From the NCBI GenBank assembly GCA_000444245.1, contig ATSW01112770.1:1-20634 (forward strand): a stretch of 20,634 nt of DNA, written 5' to 3'. The stretch comes from Botryllus schlosseri. Lineage: Eukaryota; Chordata; Ascidiacea; Stolidobranchia; Styelidae. The notes under the pieces were generated by a model that was not told the origin of the DNA, did no database searches, and saw only the letters and a program-made list of their open reading frames with translations. Below, piece by piece: positions 3,636-19,409 of this stretch (the stretch's first letter is position 1; every line of letters starts with the position of its first letter). The position numbers were made by a program, and so were the translations under genes.

Positions 3636-4062
3636 TGTTCCGACGCGGCACTGAAATCAATGAGTGGCGCTTTATCAGGTGTCGGGATCCTGTCTGCTAC
3701 ACACTAAATCTGGCAATCTTGGTACTAAGCAAGCGTTGCGTATCTCAAATCTCTTCTGTTTCAAATACAAGCAGTCCAAAACATACAATACGGAATAGCT
3801 TGTTCAGAATATAGATACGTTAAATGGCGAGATTCGCAAGATTGCTTGCTCGTCCGATAGAAGTCGAAATAGAGAAAGAAATAACAGCAACAGAGCAATA
3901 TAAAGGTAAACGAGAACGGACGGCGCAACAATTAAATTAACCAATCATCAACCAAAACAGAACAATTAAGACTTGTCGAAGAAAATAACGGAATGCAGTT
4001 GAATTAAACTGACTCACTAAAACATCCACACTGATTAACTAAAAACATGACTCGTCAAAACA
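3636..4062 (-). repeat. 3' LTR of the Bel/Pao element, with adjacent polypurine tract
   Basis: The near-identical second LTR. Immediately before it in element orientation lies AAGTGGGGGAG (plus-strand 4063-4073), a purine-rich stretch abutting TGTT, which is the polypurine-tract arrangement usual in Bel/Pao elements. Confidence 0.92.
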
Positions 4063-4089
4063 CTCCCCCACTTGACCGACTATGATCGG

Positions 4090-6033
4090 TCAACAGATTC
4101 TTCCATCAGCAAATCTCTCCAGCCTGTCGTTCAACGAAATCCATGGATCAGGTTTCAACGAAACGTCCATTGACGCGGCTGTTTTAACTTCACCTTTGTG
4201 GTGGATTCGTCCCAACGCAGTAGGCAATAATGTGTCTGTATCGAAATCCCGAAACGCGGGAGTGGAAACGTCAACAGTTGATACCATACACTTCGCGTCA
4301 ATCAATGGTCCCGCAGAAACGTGTAACAATTTGTGGTGGGGTTTCCCACAGCCAGTAACGGAACAACGCTCCTTACATTGATGAAAATGCTTCGGGTGGT
4401 CTTTGTGTCCTTTCGGGGATAAGCATCTAAAACACACTTTACCAGGCTTCATAACCAAGTCAGCCAATCGCTGGGCGGGATTTAATTTCAGAAATTTAAA
4501 ACAATCTTTCAATAAATGAGGTTTTGAGCAGTAGGTGCATGATAGCTGGACGGATTGAATCACGAGAGACTGGGCAGAAAATGCATTGTCAGGTTTATCG
4601 GTACCAACACTAACCAGCTCATCTTTATGTGGGGGCTTTTCACGTACGTCAACAGGGCAACGCCCATTCTGCGACTTACGCAACGATTCCATCGTCGCCA
4701 ACTCGGTTCTTAGAAACTCAAACAGGAGATCAGAATCAGGAATCTTATCGGCTTCGATCAAGGGGCTAGTTTTTCTGATCCAACGCTCATGCAACGTACC
4801 AGGCAACTGGGACTCTAGTACCTGTGTAAAGAGTTGGTCCCAAGAGACGTCATACTGCGATAAAATGGCCCTTTTAGCAGTAGCGGCATCGAGAAGTTGT
4901 CTGACTTTGTCGATCTTAAATTCAACTTTCTCACCCTGTAGTAAGTCTTCGATGTGATTTCTCACGATCGCTTGCTTCTTTCCGTACCTTTTAAGAACGG
5001 CCTCTACCGCAGGCTCATAATTCACTGCCGCCGAGGGGAAACCATTGAGAAGGCCGGATGACGAACCTTTAAGAGCTGCCTTTAAATACGAGATTTTGTT
5101 AAACGGACTGACCTTTGGATTTTTGTGAACCAATGGCTCGAACGACTCCCAAAATGCCAGAAAAGTCAAAATATCGCCATTGAATGTAGACGGCACTATT
5201 CCACTCGGGAGGGATCCAGCAGCTTTTTCCGCTTCTTCGGCAGCTTTCAGCAATGAAGACTTGGATTTGGCTAGAGTAATGTGTACAAAATAAATTTCTT
5301 TTGATCTTCTCATGCCATCAATGATTTCGGTCTTGAAATCACCATCGTCAAGCTGGTCGACTTTTGAATCCACGAATGCCTTGAGATCGGTCATTGATAT
5401 TTCTACCGACCGTATGAAGACCTCAATTTCTTCGACGAAGGTGGAATGTGCATGTTTCTTCTCCTGAGCTTGCAAAGACTCTAAGAGGTCAGCATTCATG
5501 CGCCTGAACTTCTTTATAACAACCTCGTGTAGACATGAATGTTCACTTCTTGCCGATGAATGGTTATCGGACTGCTGGCGAATTTCTTCTAATTTATCGG
5601 ACTGCTGGCGAATTTCTTCTAATTGCAGTCTGAATCGTCTTTCGGATTCTTCACGGTCTTGGGCGTGTTTCTGCTTGATCTCCTCGAGCTGCAGCTGAAA
5701 CTTACGGTCAGAAGCTTCCCGATCTAATTGCTGCTGCTGCCGATGGAGATCTAGCTGATGCTTCATCATCTGAAAAAGCATAACCAGTTCAGATGATGTA
5801 CTCTCGGTGGTGCTCAATGGAGAGGGCTTCGGTTCTTTCTTTTGTGAAGGTTTGTCGGAATCTCGGATTTTCCCTAATCGGTCCGTCAATACAGCTTCGC
5901 TCCCACTTGTAGCTTCGCCAAGTTCTTGTAATTCGGGTCGTAAATCGTCGACCGTCATCTTAGCTAATGGCTTCCAAGTCGGTGCCAAGGTTGGAGACTT
6001 GGGGGATTCCGATGGAGACTTCACAAACGACAT
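4090..6033 (-). CDS. Gag-like protein of the Bel/Pao element
   Basis: A 647-codon open frame on the minus strand, starting ATG at 6033. In order it has a short SAP-like helical segment (about residues 28-56), a long charged Gln/Glu/Arg-rich coiled coil (about 75-175) containing a near-perfect repeat of an EIRQQSDKL-type unit, a central domain of the Bel/Pao gag kind (the family annotated as DUF1759, recognised by a FNGD...F..FW..F motif near residue 285 and following helices), and a C-terminal Cys/His region with CxxCxKPHLLKDC and a further CFRC...GHKDH...C cluster. Bel/Pao gag proteins form the particle that packages the element's RNA. The frame is the only coding sequence in the element. 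The frames on the opposite strand are shadows. Confidence 0.9.
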   Translation of the reverse strand: MSFVKSPSESPKSPTLAPTWKPLAKMTVDDLRPELQELGEATSGSEAVLTDRLGKIRDSDKPSQKKEPKPSPLSTTESTSSELVMLFQMMKHQLDLHRQQQQLDREASDRKFQLQLEEIKQKHAQDREESERRFRLQLEEIRQQSDKLEEIRQQSDNHSSARSEHSCLHEVVIKKFRRMNADLLESLQAQEKKHAHSTFVEEIEVFIRSVEISMTDLKAFVDSKVDQLDDGDFKTEIIDGMRRSKEIYFVHITLAKSKSSLLKAAEEAEKAAGSLPSGIVPSTFNGDILTFLAFWESFEPLVHKNPKVSPFNKISYLKAALKGSSSGLLNGFPSAAVNYEPAVEAVLKRYGKKQAIVRNHIEDLLQGEKVEFKIDKVRQLLDAATAKRAILSQYDVSWDQLFTQVLESQLPGTLHERWIRKTSPLIEADKIPDSDLLFEFLRTELATMESLRKSQNGRCPVDVREKPPHKDELVSVGTDKPDNAFSAQSLVIQSVQLSCTYCSKPHLLKDCFKFLKLNPAQRLADLVMKPGKVCFRCLSPKGHKDHPKHFHQCKERCSVTGCGKPHHKLLHVSAGPLIDAKCMVSTVDVSTPAFRDFDTDTLLPTALGRIHHKGEVKTAASMDVSLKPDPWISLNDRLERFADGRIC

Positions 6034-6197
6034 CGTTCAATTGAATATAACAACTATGTAAATGTAGCAGATTTAGTGCCAAACAGAGTCGATCGATCTT
6101 CGTAGCGCAGCAGAGTCTTGAATATAGAGTAATACCATGCGGCGCCTGAATCGAAGAGCGTCTCGAAGATATCGGCTTTAATAGGCTTCTTGCGAAT

Positions 6198-6624
6198 TGT
6201 TCCGACGCGGCACTGAAATCAATGAGTGGCGCTTTATCAGGTGTCGGGATCCTGTCTGCTACACACTAAATCTGGCAATCTTGGTACTAAGCAAGCGTTG
6301 CGTATCTCAAATCTCTTCTGTTTCAAATACAAGCAGTCCAAAACATACAATACGGAATAGCTTGTTCAGAATATAGATACGTTAAATGGCGAGATTCGCA
6401 AGATTGCTTGCTCGTCCGATAGAAGTCGAAATAGAGAAAGAAATAACAGCAACAGAGCAATATAAAGGTAAACGAGAACGGACGGCGCAACAATTAAATT
6501 AACCAATCATCAACCAAAACAGAACAATTAAGACTTGTCGAAGAAAATAACGGAATGCAGTTGAATTAAACTGACTCACTAAAACATCCAAACTGATTAA
6601 CTAAAAACATGACTCGTCAAAACA
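6198..6624 (-). repeat. 5' LTR of the Bel/Pao element
   Basis: This 427-bp copy is upstream of the gag frame in element orientation. It matches 3636-4062 with about one difference. The minus-strand ends are TG..CA. The 164-bp leader between it and the gag start showed no primer-binding site that I could match to a tRNA. Confidence 0.92.
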
Positions 6625-6629
6625 GTAGG

Positions 6630-7395
6630 GACGCGCTGAGCTTGCATCTAGCATACGGGTGTTGAAGCTCGTGAGTGTGCAGTTGTGCAATGTGCACGCG
6701 TGCATTAACCGATTCGAGGCTCGAATCCCTCGTCATTTTCCGGGGCTGGATTTCCGAGGCTGTGATCCCCTTTGGTCGATCTCAAGCAAAGTTGGCGTTG
6801 TCACCACTCCACCGATAACTGTTGAAGCTTCGATTTCGAAATGTTCAAAGTACCAACAAAAACTGTTCGATTTTAATCCATAAAATCATATCCCATATTT
6901 GAAAATTTTGATGCAAAAAGCATCAACACAAATTTAGTTTGTGAAATCAGAATCGCTGCACAGTGCACACAGCACGCCGCACAGTCACAATGATCAAAAA
7001 TATGTTACATTTATTATAACCGCTTGCTACATCCCTACTTGTCCTTACCTCTGCATTTAGGAGGGAAAGCTGAGAATTCACCTGGGGCCAGACATGTCGC
7101 TGAATCCATCCCAACAAGATGGAACCCGTTACTACATTGATAACAAACAACGTCACCGAGACGGTACTGCTTTTAACCGTAGTTGTTTCGCCTTTTGCGG
7201 ACACACCTGGATACTTGCAGATGATTCCAATACTTTACTCGTCACCTGGTCTACTGTAAGAGGGTCTTAAAACAGAATGGACGGAATAGAATATATTAGA
7301 CTAAGGCTATTGACGTCCAAATGAGAACGTATTGGATTGATCACTAAAGATCTTCTCGCAGATTTTGCGTATACATGTTCTGGAAAGTATTTACG
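6630..7395. other. Intergenic stretch with a weak pol III-like B-box and a doubtful open frame
   Basis: GGCTCGAATCC at 6718-6728 resembles a tRNA B-box and sits in a CGAGG/CCTCG hairpin, with only a weak A-box-like TAGC about 69 bp upstream. A tRNA or SINE relic is possible but no full cloverleaf was found. On the minus strand a frame at about 6947-7230 encodes a hydrophobic run (residues such as VSVTLFVINVV) and contains a good donor, GTAAGG, near 7053. No family was recognised, so no exon is claimed. Confidence 0.3.
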
Positions 7396-10773: not shown

Positions 10774-13367
10774 ATGGCGATGCAAAATTTTGGATTTCTG
10801 TGTGGATTTCTCGTTGCTGCGGCGTCAGGTAACATATATGCCCCCAGACAATTTCTAGCATAACCCTGAGCTTAATTAAACTGATCATAAAGCATACCCC
10901 GCGATATTGAGCCATGACTCATTTCTATTGTTGGGGGCGAATCTATAACACGTCAGTTTACGACGATCTCAACCCAGAATTTGAGCCACTGCCGCTGTGT
11001 GCATTGGTTGGGTAGATTGAATGGTTGATAACGACATCGCATTGTCAGTACGCATGCATTATATGCCTTGCAAACATGAAACATTATCAAGTTACAAGAA
11101 ACATATTTCGTTTGAATACGACGAAACGACATTGTATAGCAGAACTAGCAGTCCTACACGCAATCTTTTGCTCCAATAAGGAATACAGCAACGTCACAAC
11201 ACAATAGCACTACGTAACCAGATTCCAAAAGACTGCCCGCAAAAAAGTCAGACATTAGTTAGGTCAACGATAGCCTGATTATGACTTCATATTTTCAGCA
11301 TACTACTCAGCAGATCCAGTGGTACATACAAGGAATCCGCTTATTCATGGACCAGCAAAGCCACTCGGATGCCATCCCCCTTTTTTCAAATACGGCTCGT
11401 ATTCGCCGGCAATTCCTTCCGGTGTCTGTCCTTACGGCACTATTCTTCATTTCCAATGCAAACAAGGATACCGCTTAAATGGGCCAGAGCATGCCAAGTG
11501 CACGGCGTCGGGACATTGGAGCCCTCCGCACATTCCGACCTGCAACAGTAAGCAGCACTTTCGGATGCCGAATGCATGCAAAATACCTATAGCCATGATT
11601 TTGAATGTTCATTTTTATACGCAGAAATCGACAGATGCAAGTTTCAAAATCCGTGTGGGCACAATGCCCACTGCATTGAATCCAGAGGACAGTTGAAGTG
11701 TCTGTGTGAAAAAGGGTACTACCCAAAGGGAAACAAATGTATTAGTAAGAAGCCCATATTATGTATGTGTTCATTGTCAAGGAATTAATCAAAAGGATTG
11801 GTTTTTAGCGAAAGTATGCTCGGTGCCAGTACTGAATGCATATTGCCAGTACAGCCCAAGATTACAACACCAGTGGCTTCCAGGGCAAAAAATAAAATTC
11901 GTCTGCCCGCCCGGTTACGACCTTGAAGGGGCGCAATATGCGGAGTGTTTACACGGTGGTAAATGGGACCAGGCTTCGCCCATTTGTAAAAAGCGTGAGT
12001 ACTCACAGTTTGAGATCTGCAAAATTTATTTTCGTAACCGGGTAGATGTTTTAGGAGTTTACTGCAACGTTCCCAGTCTTCCACATTACTGTAGCTACAC
12101 TCCACATTATCAACGTACATGGGATTATGGGCAGAAGATACAATTTCATTGCCCGAAAGGATTCAAGATGGTAGGAAACGCCTACGCAAGTTGCATGCAC
12201 GGTGGCAAATGGGACTCCTACCCTCCAAAATGCGAAGGACGTGAGTAACATTACCAAGGGACATTTCTTGAAATTCGGGGTGTATTCGAATGTGCTGATA
12301 ACCAACCCCTCTAAGCGGGGTGCCCAACTGTCTCTTAGTGAGTGCCCGTGTTGGAAGCAAATATCCGCAAATAACGATATGATATATTAGTCAGATCAAC
12401 ACCTGGTCTGCCCATGTGCATTGTGAATAGGCTATTATACACTTACATTTCATTTATTGATACACGAAGAAGATATTGAAGCGATACCAGCATTCAAGAC
12501 CTAAATCGTTTTAAATTGTAAGAGAACGGTTCCAATGAGTTACGCTATGAACATAATCAATGACTTTTTGTGACCTGAAAGTGAAATATTCTCTCCATAC
12601 TCTGCCGTTATATTAACAGCGAAATCCATCGACAATGACGAACTGAAGTAAGTGCATTTTTCGACATTATGATCTTACTAATCTAATAATTTGTTTTCGT
12701 CCGTAAAATTGACCTGACCAACATTATGCGTTCGTCAGTTAAAGTGACTAATTTCATAAGTAATTGCGCTGTATCAATCCGATCTCCTCTGTCTTGCAGG
12801 TGTTGTGTGTCACAAACCGACACTAACACCCCACTGTGGTTATCAACCGAGGTATCAAACAACGTGGCATCCCGAACAAAAGGTTAAGTTCTATTGCGCG
12901 TACGGTTATCAGCTAACTGGGCATCCATACGCCAAATGCGGGTACGATGGAAGATGGAGCAATCCTGCCCCAGTATGCAAAAGTAAGCTGTTGGCTTGCA
13001 TATCTGTCACCTTGACGCAGGGCGGATCGTGGAACTGTACCTTGTCAAATTCAGAAATCCAAGTGTATTGCAAAGCACCACCTCTGCCGTATACGTGCCA
13101 CTGTCATCTGTCCACGCATTACAAACAGTACTACACAGTTGGAGAAATGGCGAAATTCTCCTGTCCACATGGTCTGAAGTTGAACGGATTTGCGGTGACG
13201 AAATGCATGTACAACGGACACTGGTCACATCCCACACCTGTTTGCATAAAACGTAAGTCCTTGTATTTTTGTGTCGACTATCCGCAGGACTATTAATATA
13301 TCTGTTTGTTTTTGCTACAGCGACACCGTTCAGGTTTGGATTGGGCTTTCTGACAAAACTAGGATAA
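10774..13367 (+). CDS. Secreted CCP (sushi)/EGF modular protein, complete, eight exons
   Basis: Exons: 10774-10828, 11299-11547, 11625-11744, 11809-11994, 12055-12240, 12800-12982, 13055-13252, 13321-13367. Every junction is GT..AG and phase 1, and the joined frame is open for 407 residues (1224 nt including stop TAA at 13365-13367). Order: signal peptide (1-19, hydrophobic core FGFLCGFLVAAA, likely cleavage after ASA), divergent CCP1 (about 42-100), EGF-like (106-140), CCP2 (about 145-201), CCP3, CCP4, CCP5 (to about 390), then a 15-residue tail rich in Phe/Gly/Leu. Each module sits on its own exon, the classic exon-shuffling pattern. CCP modules usually mediate extracellular protein or carbohydrate binding, as in complement regulators and cell adhesion proteins; the ligand here is unknown. 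There is no transmembrane segment, so secretion is inferred. Five introns are only 60-77 bp; the other two are 470 and 559 bp. The second Met (codon 3) could also serve as start. Confidence 0.88.
11299..11547 (+). other. CCP1 exon with N-terminal spacer
   Basis: Encodes residues 19-101. The first 23 residues are a spacer after the signal peptide. The module then shows GCHPP...FQCKQGYRLNG...AKC...GHWS...PTC, the four canonical CCP cysteines and the invariant Trp. An additional Cys lies in GVCPYG, at a different place from the extra Cys of CCP2-CCP5. It is the most divergent of the five CCP modules. Confidence 0.85.
11625..11744 (+). other. EGF-like domain exon
   Basis: Encodes residues 102-141 on a single 120-nt exon. 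Six cysteines have EGF spacing: DRC, NPC, AHC, LKC, LC and NKC, with the typical GxNAHC and CEKGYYPKG turns. The start IDRC is only partly like a calcium-binding EGF, and the usual Asn/Asp hydroxylation motif is not present, so calcium binding is uncertain. Confidence 0.88.
11809..13252 (+). other. Array of four CCP modules (CCP2-CCP5) with a conserved fifth cysteine
   Basis: Exons 11809-11994, 12055-12240, 12800-12982 and 13055-13252 encode one CCP each. CCP2 and CCP3 exons are both exactly 186 nt and share GQKI.F.CP.G and C.HGGKWD, so they look like a fairly recent tandem duplication; CCP4 is close to them. All four start C-x2-P-x-L-x3-C, placing an extra Cys nine residues after the first canonical one. 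CCP5 has yet another Cys (CHC). Standard CCP modules have only four. Confidence 0.85.
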
Positions 13368-16006: not shown

Positions 16007-18718
16007 CTATGTAAAATACGACAAGAGTCCCATGTGTGCTTGGAAAGAGCTCGTGGAGTTGTTACGATGTTTCGGGTGATTCCCACATTGATACCCGTAG
16101 TCATAACAGCATTCCTTCCCGTATCGTGTGGAACAGAGAGTCTCGCACGAACATTCGTTTTCAGTCGTTTTGCTTTCACCGCATCTACCTTTGCAAGAGC
16201 CGCGGCCTAGAAAAGTAAAATATGAATGTCTTATTTCCTAAATGACGCCATTTGCTCGTAATTCTAAATTAGTGAGATGTAATGAGAGACAATGACGTAC
16301 ATCAGTGGTCGGGAACCTATGGCTCGCGAGCCATATATGGCTCTTTTGGGTATAAGATATGGCTCTTTGTGAAATGTTTATTTTTGTACTGAATTGATCA
16401 ATATTGCAGCAACTTGTTAGTAAATTTTCATCACGACCGTAATAAATATTCCCGTGACAGTATAAACATGTCTTTGAGAGGTAAAGAAAAATGCCGTCTT
16501 CAGGTTTAGGGACACAAACTCTTTTCAAAATCCTCAAATTTAAGTTACTGTCGCGCCGGCGACCAATATAACTCGCGAAGTCGACCCCGCTACCCGACTC
16601 GAAATCTTGAATTTCGCGATACGTTGATTGATCAAAGAGAATAGCACCAATATGACAACGCAGTTTTCAAATACACATTGTCTTCCTGATCTACTACGCG
16701 AAATGCACTGCCGTTACAAACGTTACAAACTCGAATTACAAACAACGCCATAGCTATCCACGTTCTTGATTGATATATCTACCGGCGATAAAATAGGCGT
16801 GTGGGCAACTTTATATATGTTTCCTCCGAACATTTTGAGAATTGAGAAGGCGATCAGTATTTAGATTTCAGAATTAGTGCGACAGTCACATTGGGTTAAT
16901 ATCGGTTATAATAAATTCTAAGCTATTTACGATGAATTGCGTTATCAAGGGTGAGGTCTGGACCGTTTGTGCCTCACCTCTCGTTTCGCGCTTCATTTCC
17001 AAACAATTAAATGCAAATTGTGTGAATTTGGGAGAAAAATGTTCAAAATATATTCATTCATGAACATCAATAGAAAATACCAAATTGAAGGTTTCAAAAT
17101 TTTCGCTAATAGCGTAGAGTGGGTAGGCCTATATAGATTGCTGCAGTGACAATGTTTGGCTCCACCTAAGCAAGTGATCATGGGTTCTCGAATTTAAAAG
17201 AAACATCACGACGAACTTACGTTCTCGTAATCAAAGTTTCCCATGCTCACGTAAGGCAACCAGCATGATTAAGATGAGTTTTTACAGAGAATGTGGCGCA
17301 CACAACGACACCCGTGTAGTGCGTTCGAATAAGTGCTACCATGACGTCAGGAATTTTCAATTGTGACGTAACAGCTGATTGACATGTATGGCTATTTGGG
17401 AAGTATAGCGGAAAAAATAAGGCCAATATGGCTCTTCGGACAAAAAAGGTTCCCGACCACTGACGTACATTATTGTCTGTAGGCTCACTCATTAGAATCG
17501 TGCAATTCCGTTTAGTGACCAAAACATCGATAACAGTAATAAACCAGGTATAGAACCAGCTAATTGCGCCTCGGATAGTATTATAGGCAACTTCTCTGAA
17601 GGATTGGAACCTATACGAAATCGGAGTAGCAGCACCATTCCGGTGTGATCAATATAAGATTCAGAACATAGCAGTGTTGGGATCAAGTCACTACCTTCGA
17701 GTCACGAGTCATTTCGAGTCATTGCATATTTTGACTCGAGTCAAGTCAAGTCAATCGATTTTCAAAGGTGACTCGAGTCAAGTCAAGTCACCCGATTTTT
17801 GGAGGTGACTCGAGTCAAGTCGAGTCAAGTCAAGTCAAGTCACGAGTCAAGTCAAAATTCAAGTCAAGTTGTCTTTTCGAGTATGAGGCATGATAACGTC
17901 ATTGCATTTTACTATAGCTGGCTGAAATACAGATTGAATGGTCATTGATTTAGAACCGATGAACGAATATAGAGTTAAATATACACGCAAGAAGGCGCTG
18001 TATCGCTCACATATACGTAGAACTGCTAAACCTCAATTTATAGTTACCAACCAAAAAATGAATAGATGCGAATTGATAAGATGCAATACATTACGCATTT
18101 ACAAATCGATATGATGCAATTCCAGCCTGCGCCAATGGTTGAGGACTGTATAAACTATAGTCGAATTCAGTTTCAATAAAACAAGAGGTTTGGCTAAGGT
18201 AAAAACAGAGAACAGAAATTACTTTACTATAATAGTTTAGGACAACGTAAGCTGTAAGCTTCGATCACTTCGTTTGCGTTCAATTTATTTGTGATAGAAC
18301 AATGGAGGCTCAGTAAAACGCACGATCATTAAATGATTGGTCGCTCTCACGGTTTAAAGGCGTTTCGCGAACAATCCGAGCATATGCAAGATACAATGAT
18401 TTTGATCGACACCGATTACTTGATGACTTGAAATTGACTCGTGAATTTTGCTCCGAGTCACGAGTCAATCCACATTTCTGATACGCCGAGTCAAGTCAAG
18501 TCAAGTCATTTTAGCAAAGTGACTCGAGTCAAGTCATGACTCGAGTCATCCCAACACTGGAACATAGATTGGTCAATTAGTCATCATAGTGTCAAGTAGC
18601 TTACTGCATTTGTCTTCATAGTCGTTGCAACAATCCCCTCGTTCCTGGCACATTTTATCGCATTGACAAGGCAGACCCGCGATTTTCGGAAGTGTACACC
18701 TGTGTTCGCAACCTTGTT
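16007..18718 (-). CDS. Somatomedin-B domain protein, C-terminal two exons (5' part outside window)
   Basis: Exon 18718-18605 (114 nt) is bounded by TTTCAG-like and GTAAGC sites and encodes one somatomedin-B domain: GC..RC......PCQCD..C...GDCCNDY...C, all eight cysteines in place. Exon 16206-16007 follows a TTTTCTAG acceptor, keeps phase 1, and encodes a second one: SCKGRC........ECSC..LC....KECCYDY..QC, then a 25-residue tail with overlapping NNS/NST sequons and stop TAG. Joining them is open and gives a split Ser codon. Somatomedin-B domains are compact disulfide knots in secreted or surface proteins such as vitronectin and ENPP ectoenzymes, where they bind PAI-1, uPAR or partner domains. 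Earlier exons were not found up to the right edge, so the rest of the protein is unknown. The first domain contains RGD, but within the conserved GDCC loop. The intron between them (18604-16207) carries two hAT insertions. Confidence 0.8.
16303..17462. mobile_element. hAT-type non-autonomous element, 1160 bp, in the somatomedin-B gene's last intron
   Basis: The ends CAGTGGTCGGGAACC and GGTTCCCGACCACTG form a perfect 15-bp inverted repeat. ACGTACAT flanks it at 16295-16302 and 17463-17470, a perfect 8-bp target duplication. Near the left end ATGGCTCGCGAGCCAT is a 16-bp palindrome, and ATGGCTCTT recurs near both ends. No protein-coding frame is recognisable. Confidence 0.9.
17672..18559. mobile_element. 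hAT-type MITE with TGACTCGAGTCA subterminal arrays, 888 bp
   Basis: It begins CAGTGTTGGGAT and ends ATCCCAACACTG. GAACATAG flanks it at 17664-17671 and 18560-18567, a perfect 8-bp target duplication. The outer 200 bp on the left and 120 bp on the right are made of repeated GACTCGAGTCAAGTCAAGTC words, including several copies of the 12-bp palindrome TGACTCGAGTCA. The middle is unique AT-rich sequence without a gene. It lies in the last intron of the somatomedin-B gene. Confidence 0.9.
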
Positions 18719-19047
18719 CTGAAATGCAAACACATTATTGGGTGTACACAAATACTCCTCCACGCCTCAAAATTAATGATTATAGCGAATGAAATCCATA
18801 GCATATGGAGTGACATCACATTTTACAGATGGAGATTTTAGATGGAGGAAAAGATCGTTTTCCGCACCATCCATTTACACTTTAATGGGGAATGATTAAT
18901 TGGCCTGTCCCTACCCTACAATGCCTACATATTTACCACTCATCTGGAGTCACTACTAATAATACAAGAGTTGTAGTGTAAATTCAGATTTCTGTTTGAT
19001 GTCAGCAACCCACGGGAATGTATCGGGCAGTGCATGAGTATATGAGC
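18719..19047. other. Intron sequence of the somatomedin-B gene, nothing else recognised
   Basis: This lies immediately upstream (minus strand) of the 18605-18718 exon. No further cysteine-rich exon could be found here. Confidence 0.45.
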
Positions 19048-19409
19048 CAGTGTTGGGATGACTCGAGTCATGACTTGACTCGAGTCAGACTCGAGTCAAC
19101 TTTTTCGTATGACTTGACTTGACTCGAGTCACTTTGCCAAAATGGCTTGACTTGACTTGACTCGGAGATTCAGAAATGTGGATTGACTCGTGACTCGGAG
19201 CAAAATTTACGAGTCAATTTCAAGTCATCAAGTAACGGTGTCGATTAAGTCACCCTATCTTATGTATGTTCGGATTGTTCGCGACACGCCGGTGTCACTT
19301 GTGAGAGCAACCAGTCATTCACTGATTGTACGTTTCACTGATCCTCAGTTGTTACATCACAAATAAATTGAGCGTAGACGAAACGATCACAGCTTACGTT
19401 GTCGTAGTA
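19048..19409. mobile_element. Second copy of the TGACTCGAGTCA hAT MITE, inverted and interrupted
   Basis: It begins CAGTGTTGGGATGACTCGAG and runs parallel to the reverse complement of 18559 down to about 18240, through shared words such as CAGAAATGTGGATTGACTCG, ACAAATAAATTGA and CAGCTTACGTTGTC. The match stops where the CAGGGGTCGG end of another hAT element begins, so the rest of this copy lies beyond that insertion or is lost. Confidence 0.85.

Follow-up and report, generated by a model that had tools for sequence, protein, structure and literature searches.

An extra cysteine at a fixed place in four consecutive CCP modules of a predicted secreted protein from Botryllus schlosseri

CCP modules with additional cysteines

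Many matrix proteins, as well as selectins and complement regulators, are built from CCP (Sushi) modules, which are nearly always described as units of four or six cysteines. Selectins are transmembrane proteins with a C-type lectin domain ahead of their EGF and CCP modules. Additional cysteines are known in the cluster-D CCPs of selectins, SRPX and SRPX2, which have six cysteines and a third, putative, intramodular disulfide (PMC2151080), and in the Heligmosomoides TGM proteins, in which tandem, divergent CCP-like domains carry 4 or 6 cysteines (PMC10516467). A precedent for a cysteine that acts between chains is haptoglobin, with a CCP-containing alpha chain that is linked to a second one by an odd cysteine (Cys15–Cys15; PMC3637213), while duplication and swapping of the CCP, held by disulfides, give dimers and multimers (PMC12273918).

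Here, we describe a predicted gene in contig ATSW01112770.1 of Botryllus schlosseri (assembly GCA_000444245.1), the whole analysed stretch of which, 20,634 nucleotides of the forward strand, is referred to as the window. In four consecutive CCP modules of its product, an added cysteine occupies the same position. Other CCPs with extra cysteines are already known. They differ from an array in which successive modules share one odd cysteine at a constant position; a partial search of the literature returned no description of a CCP class with a cysteine nine residues after the first (+9). A lineage that keeps an odd cysteine in this way would show how a stock module is converted into a cross-linker or a covalent polymer, with a modest gain for wider understanding. 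We regard the array as an uncommon version of a widespread module and no new kind of system.

The described systems differ from this protein in several respects. Cluster-D modules have two extra cysteines each, whereas CCP2, CCP3 and CCP4 have one each; CCP5 alone reaches six, and it places them at +9 and +11, compared with Cys71–Cys87 in SRPX2 (PMC2151080), which sets the protein outside cluster D. It is not a selectin either, with no C-type lectin domain, an order of one CCP, EGF and four CCPs, and a short tail that ends the model. Each TGM domain spans about 80 residues, takes up two exons and has an even cysteine count, unlike the CCPs of this gene. Haptoglobin, which has one or two CCPs and the linking Cys15, also carries a serine protease-like domain; the present protein lacks any protease domain.

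Gene model and the extra cysteine motif

The window contains a single clear gene, of animal type, on the plus strand at 10774-13367, with 8 exons joined at AG/GT junctions, every intron in phase 1 and a predicted product of 407 residues. The predicted order is signal peptide, CCP1, EGF, CCP2, CCP3, CCP4, CCP5 and a 15-residue basic tail, with short linkers of 5-6 residues between the CCPs. Exon 1 (10774..10828) encodes the signal peptide MAMQNFGFLCGFLVAAAS, as judged from the ATG, a hydrophobic N-terminus and a GT donor in phase 1. CCP1 (module 11370-11543) is assigned to exon 2 (11299..11547) from its Pfam Sushi match (1e-10), alignment and splice sites, and exon 3 (11625..11744) encodes the EGF-like module. 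The remaining CCPs occupy one exon each: CCP2 exon 4 (11809..11994; module 11817-11987; Pfam Sushi 1.7e-8), CCP3 exon 5 (12055..12240; module 12063-12233; 1.9e-8), CCP4 exon 6 (12800..12982; module 12808-12978; 1.5e-8) and CCP5 exon 7 (13055..13252; module 13069-13245; 4.1e-7). Exon 8 (13321..13367), entered through an AG acceptor in phase, encodes the basic tail PTPFRFGLGFLTKLG and the stop codon TAA, about 143 nt downstream of which lies AATAAA. Introns 4 (11995-12054, 60 nt) and 6 (12983-13054, 72 nt) are multiples of three and stop-free in frame; their retention would keep the reading frame open, lengthening the linkers and adding one and two cysteines, respectively, a property that may be chance.

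All five CCPs match Pfam Sushi (PF00084) above the cut-off in the whole protein, and as isolated modules they score 30.7-42.3 bits against a cut-off of 20.7. The canonical four cysteines, with C1–C3/C2–C4 spacing, and the Trp and Gly hallmarks are intact in each of them. The EGF module has the expected spacing of six cysteines and matches PF00008 as an isolated segment (24.4 bits, cut-off 21.5), scoring below threshold in the full protein. Other Pfam content is limited to an HRM match that overlaps the CCPs; searches against NCBIfam and, across the window, for Rfam families and tRNAs were negative. The gene product is predicted to be a small, secreted, basic protein of sushi modules and one EGF. 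Its mature form contains 32 cysteines, six of which are extra, and no N-glycosylation sequon, and is composed of 8.2% Cys, 8.2% Tyr, 8.7% Lys and 6.4% His, with a pI of 9.2.

The original prediction held that CCP2–CCP5, within 11809-13252, share the pattern C-x2-P-x-L-x3-C, in which an added cysteine follows the first by nine residues. This range is identical to the span from the start of exon 4 to the end of exon 7, and we find the pattern in all four modules: CSVPVLNAYC in CCP2 (11817-11846, extra Cys codon at 11844), CNVPSLPHYC in CCP3 (12063-12092, codon at 12090), CHKPTLTPHC in CCP4 (12808-12837, codon at 12835) and CKAPPLPYTC in CCP5 (13069-13098, codon at 13096), all on the plus strand. 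The extra cysteine is module residue 10, and Pro and Leu occupy residues 4 and 6, respectively. Every copy is confined to one exon, so that the motif is independent of exon joining and exon skipping or misjoining is ruled out as its source. Elsewhere in the window, across six frames, the pattern occurs once, as CSKPHLLKDC in a retroelement gag; a first-order Markov null expects about 0.1 per window, which rules out a chance origin of the four-module motif.

CCP1–CCP4 carry five cysteines each and CCP5 six. As had been claimed, the extra cysteine of CCP1 sits elsewhere, in the hypervariable loop (module residue 20, codon 11427), and CCP5 has its sixth at residue 12 (codon TGT 13102), forming a C-H-C pair with the +9 cysteine. 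MAFFT matches the +11 cysteine of CCP5, rather than the +9, to the extra cysteine of the other modules, owing to two more residues ahead of C2 in CCP5. The competing alignments are near-equal (summed BLOSUM62 374 versus 359), and either cysteine may be the homologue.

Pairwise identity among CCP2–CCP5 is 32-53%, and dS between the modules is saturated or not computable. The codons of the extra cysteine vary synonymously (TGC/TGT/TGT/TGC in CCP2/3/4/5), and, CCP hallmarks aside, the positions invariant across these modules are limited to L6, C10 and F28. Saturated dS, low identity and differing codons together rule out recent module copying, and they indicate that the extra cysteine has been kept since duplication, maintained by selection within the modules of this gene. 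Scanning viral contigs with the pattern gave no match, and among 22 matches in prokaryotic genome contigs none was a relative by tblastn.

The fold, the four cysteines and the Trp and Gly hallmarks are common to this protein and factor H, CR1, CR2, CD46 and DAF. Regulators of complement activation are defined by binding to C3b/C4b together with cofactor or decay-accelerating activity. The top PDB sequence matches are CR1, CR2 and factor H, a likeness of module sequence that does not show a role in complement. In the alignments examined, canonical CCPs have no fifth cysteine at +9, unlike CCP2–CCP5. Most CCPs have Gly at this position, as part of an N-G step that precedes strand B. In CCP2–CCP4 this Gly is replaced by Cys, and in our alignment the corresponding residue of CCP1 is still Gly.

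Fold, geometry and candidate roles of the extra cysteines

The AF2 model of CCP2, built from an alignment of five rows that all derive from the window, has a pLDDT of 95.3 and strands at residues 11-13, 25-29 and 41-44. Its top structural match is a bovine CD46 CCP (Z 9.2, rmsd 1.3 Å over 57 residues), and it is structurally similar to many other CCPs as well, so that membership of PF00084 is borne out by profile score and by the predicted fold. As CCP2 is modelled as a normal CCP, the extra thiol would come in addition to the canonical disulfides, and the model puts it immediately before strand B in an otherwise canonical module. CCP5 is modelled at a pLDDT of 83.9, and less surely, with a mean of 71-75, over residues 1-20, the stretch that includes C-H-C.

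Where successive CCPs meet in factor H, strand E and the DE loop of the first touch the hypervariable (BD) loop of the second (PMC4068365), which would place the BD loop at the N pole of a module and the start of strand B towards its C pole. In a crude model that treats modules as rods with an assumed length of 35-40 Å, equal positions in adjacent modules are 35-40 Å apart in a straight array and at least 11 Å apart at a 90 degree tilt; bonding distance is reached only if the tilt approaches 120 degrees and the two residues point inward. Pairing between modules, proposed earlier for the extra cysteines, gains no support from this geometry, in which equal positions lie about one module length apart. 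The same is true of the earlier hint that the CCP1 cysteine pairs across modules: located in the N-pole BD loop, at the end far from CCP2 and with the EGF intervening, it appears the least suited to reach CCP2.

What, then, do the extra cysteines bond to? CCP2–CCP4 contain no second odd cysteine within the module, and with one odd cysteine in each of CCP1–CCP4 a partner inside the own module is missing. The single thiol per module and the module-length spacing make bonding between chains the likeliest outcome, and we tentatively propose, with somewhat less than even confidence, that the extra cysteines join protein chains by disulfides. Two of the options raised originally, inter-chain disulfides or a distinct CCP subclass, therefore stay plausible and are preferred, whereas the inter-module alternative is left unsupported.

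The protein would then be a secreted, basic, non-N-glycosylated rod, CCP1-EGF-CCP2-CCP3-CCP4-CCP5, in which each CCP folds with two canonical disulfides, as the intact cysteine pattern indicates and as AF2 predicts for CCP2. CCP2–CCP5 would add a thiol at the residue preceding strand B, retained since module duplication, and these thiols would bond between chains to form a covalent homodimer or multimer in a haptoglobin-like manner. The odd cysteine of CCP1 and the second extra cysteine of CCP5 might cross-link ends or pair locally. Judging from its charge, such a multivalent basic rod could attach to matrix or to polyanionic surfaces; PAPP-A has basic CCPs that bind glycosaminoglycan (PMC9579167). 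The pI and the richness in Lys, Tyr, His and Cys fit polyanion or matrix binding, as weak evidence.

The even number of mature cysteines speaks against bonding between chains, as by count all of them, the six extra ones included, could pair within one chain. Intrachain bonds between modules, for example CCP2–CCP3 with CCP4–CCP5, or CCP1 with a folded-back CCP5, would lock the array in a bent or compact form. The short linkers could fix such a bend, and strongly tilted CCP pairs are found in factor H, where inter-module tilts reach about 80-120 degrees (PMC4068365). Nevertheless, we consider this arrangement unlikely: the rod model demands a tilt of about 120 degrees with both residues inward, and the CCP1 cysteine is at the wrong pole, with the EGF between CCP1 and CCP2. 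A disulfide between neighbouring modules is possible in this model and less likely than one between chains.

The composition given above, together with the missing sequon, also suits thiols that are left unpaired or capped for chemistry, in a matrix or adhesive protein rich in Cys, Tyr and Lys, whose thiols would react with quinones, matrix proteins or heterologous partners. The whole case for this is compositional, however, and basic charge is common among extracellular CCP proteins, and we regard it as just as unlikely as the intrachain bonds. Lower still we place a structural substitution, in which the cysteine takes the former Gly site, wholly or partly buried and without a covalent partner, tolerated and inherited with duplication; Gly at this site in CCP1 and canonical CCPs and a single ancestral change before the CCP2–5 duplication would explain the pattern, but the cysteine was kept in four modules despite saturated dS and varying codons, and secreted proteins usually lose free cysteines.

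Bonding between chains could, in a specific form, amount to a disulfide zipper, with two parallel, in-register chains joined by four Cys+9–Cys+9 bonds along CCP2–CCP5 into a covalent double-stranded rod. To this form we give the least credence, and we know of no CCP protein that has a covalent double-stranded rod as its quaternary form.

Other elements in the window

On the minus strand, 7049-7167 holds a second-half CCP exon, KQYRLGDVVCYQCSNGFHLVGMDSATCLAPGEFSAFPPKCRG, with a Pfam Sushi match (5.9e-9), plausible AG/GT ends and C2–C4 only; a first-half exon was not found nearby. It may be a relic, or else belong to an adjacent CCP gene of the opposite strand whose module is split.

The same strand contains an LTR retroelement at 3636-6590, bounded by identical 393-nt terminal repeats (3636-4028 and 6198-6590) that begin with TG and end with CA. 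It encodes a 648-aa gag-like ORF (DUF1759, 2e-21) and is a recent, Bel/Pao-like insertion; since this ORF has no pol domain, the element is probably non-autonomous. Finally, a DNA-transposon or MITE-like element is located at 18243-19408; it has CAACGTAAGCTGT/ACAGCTTACGTTG as terminal inverted repeats and contains internal repeats of GACTCGAGTC.
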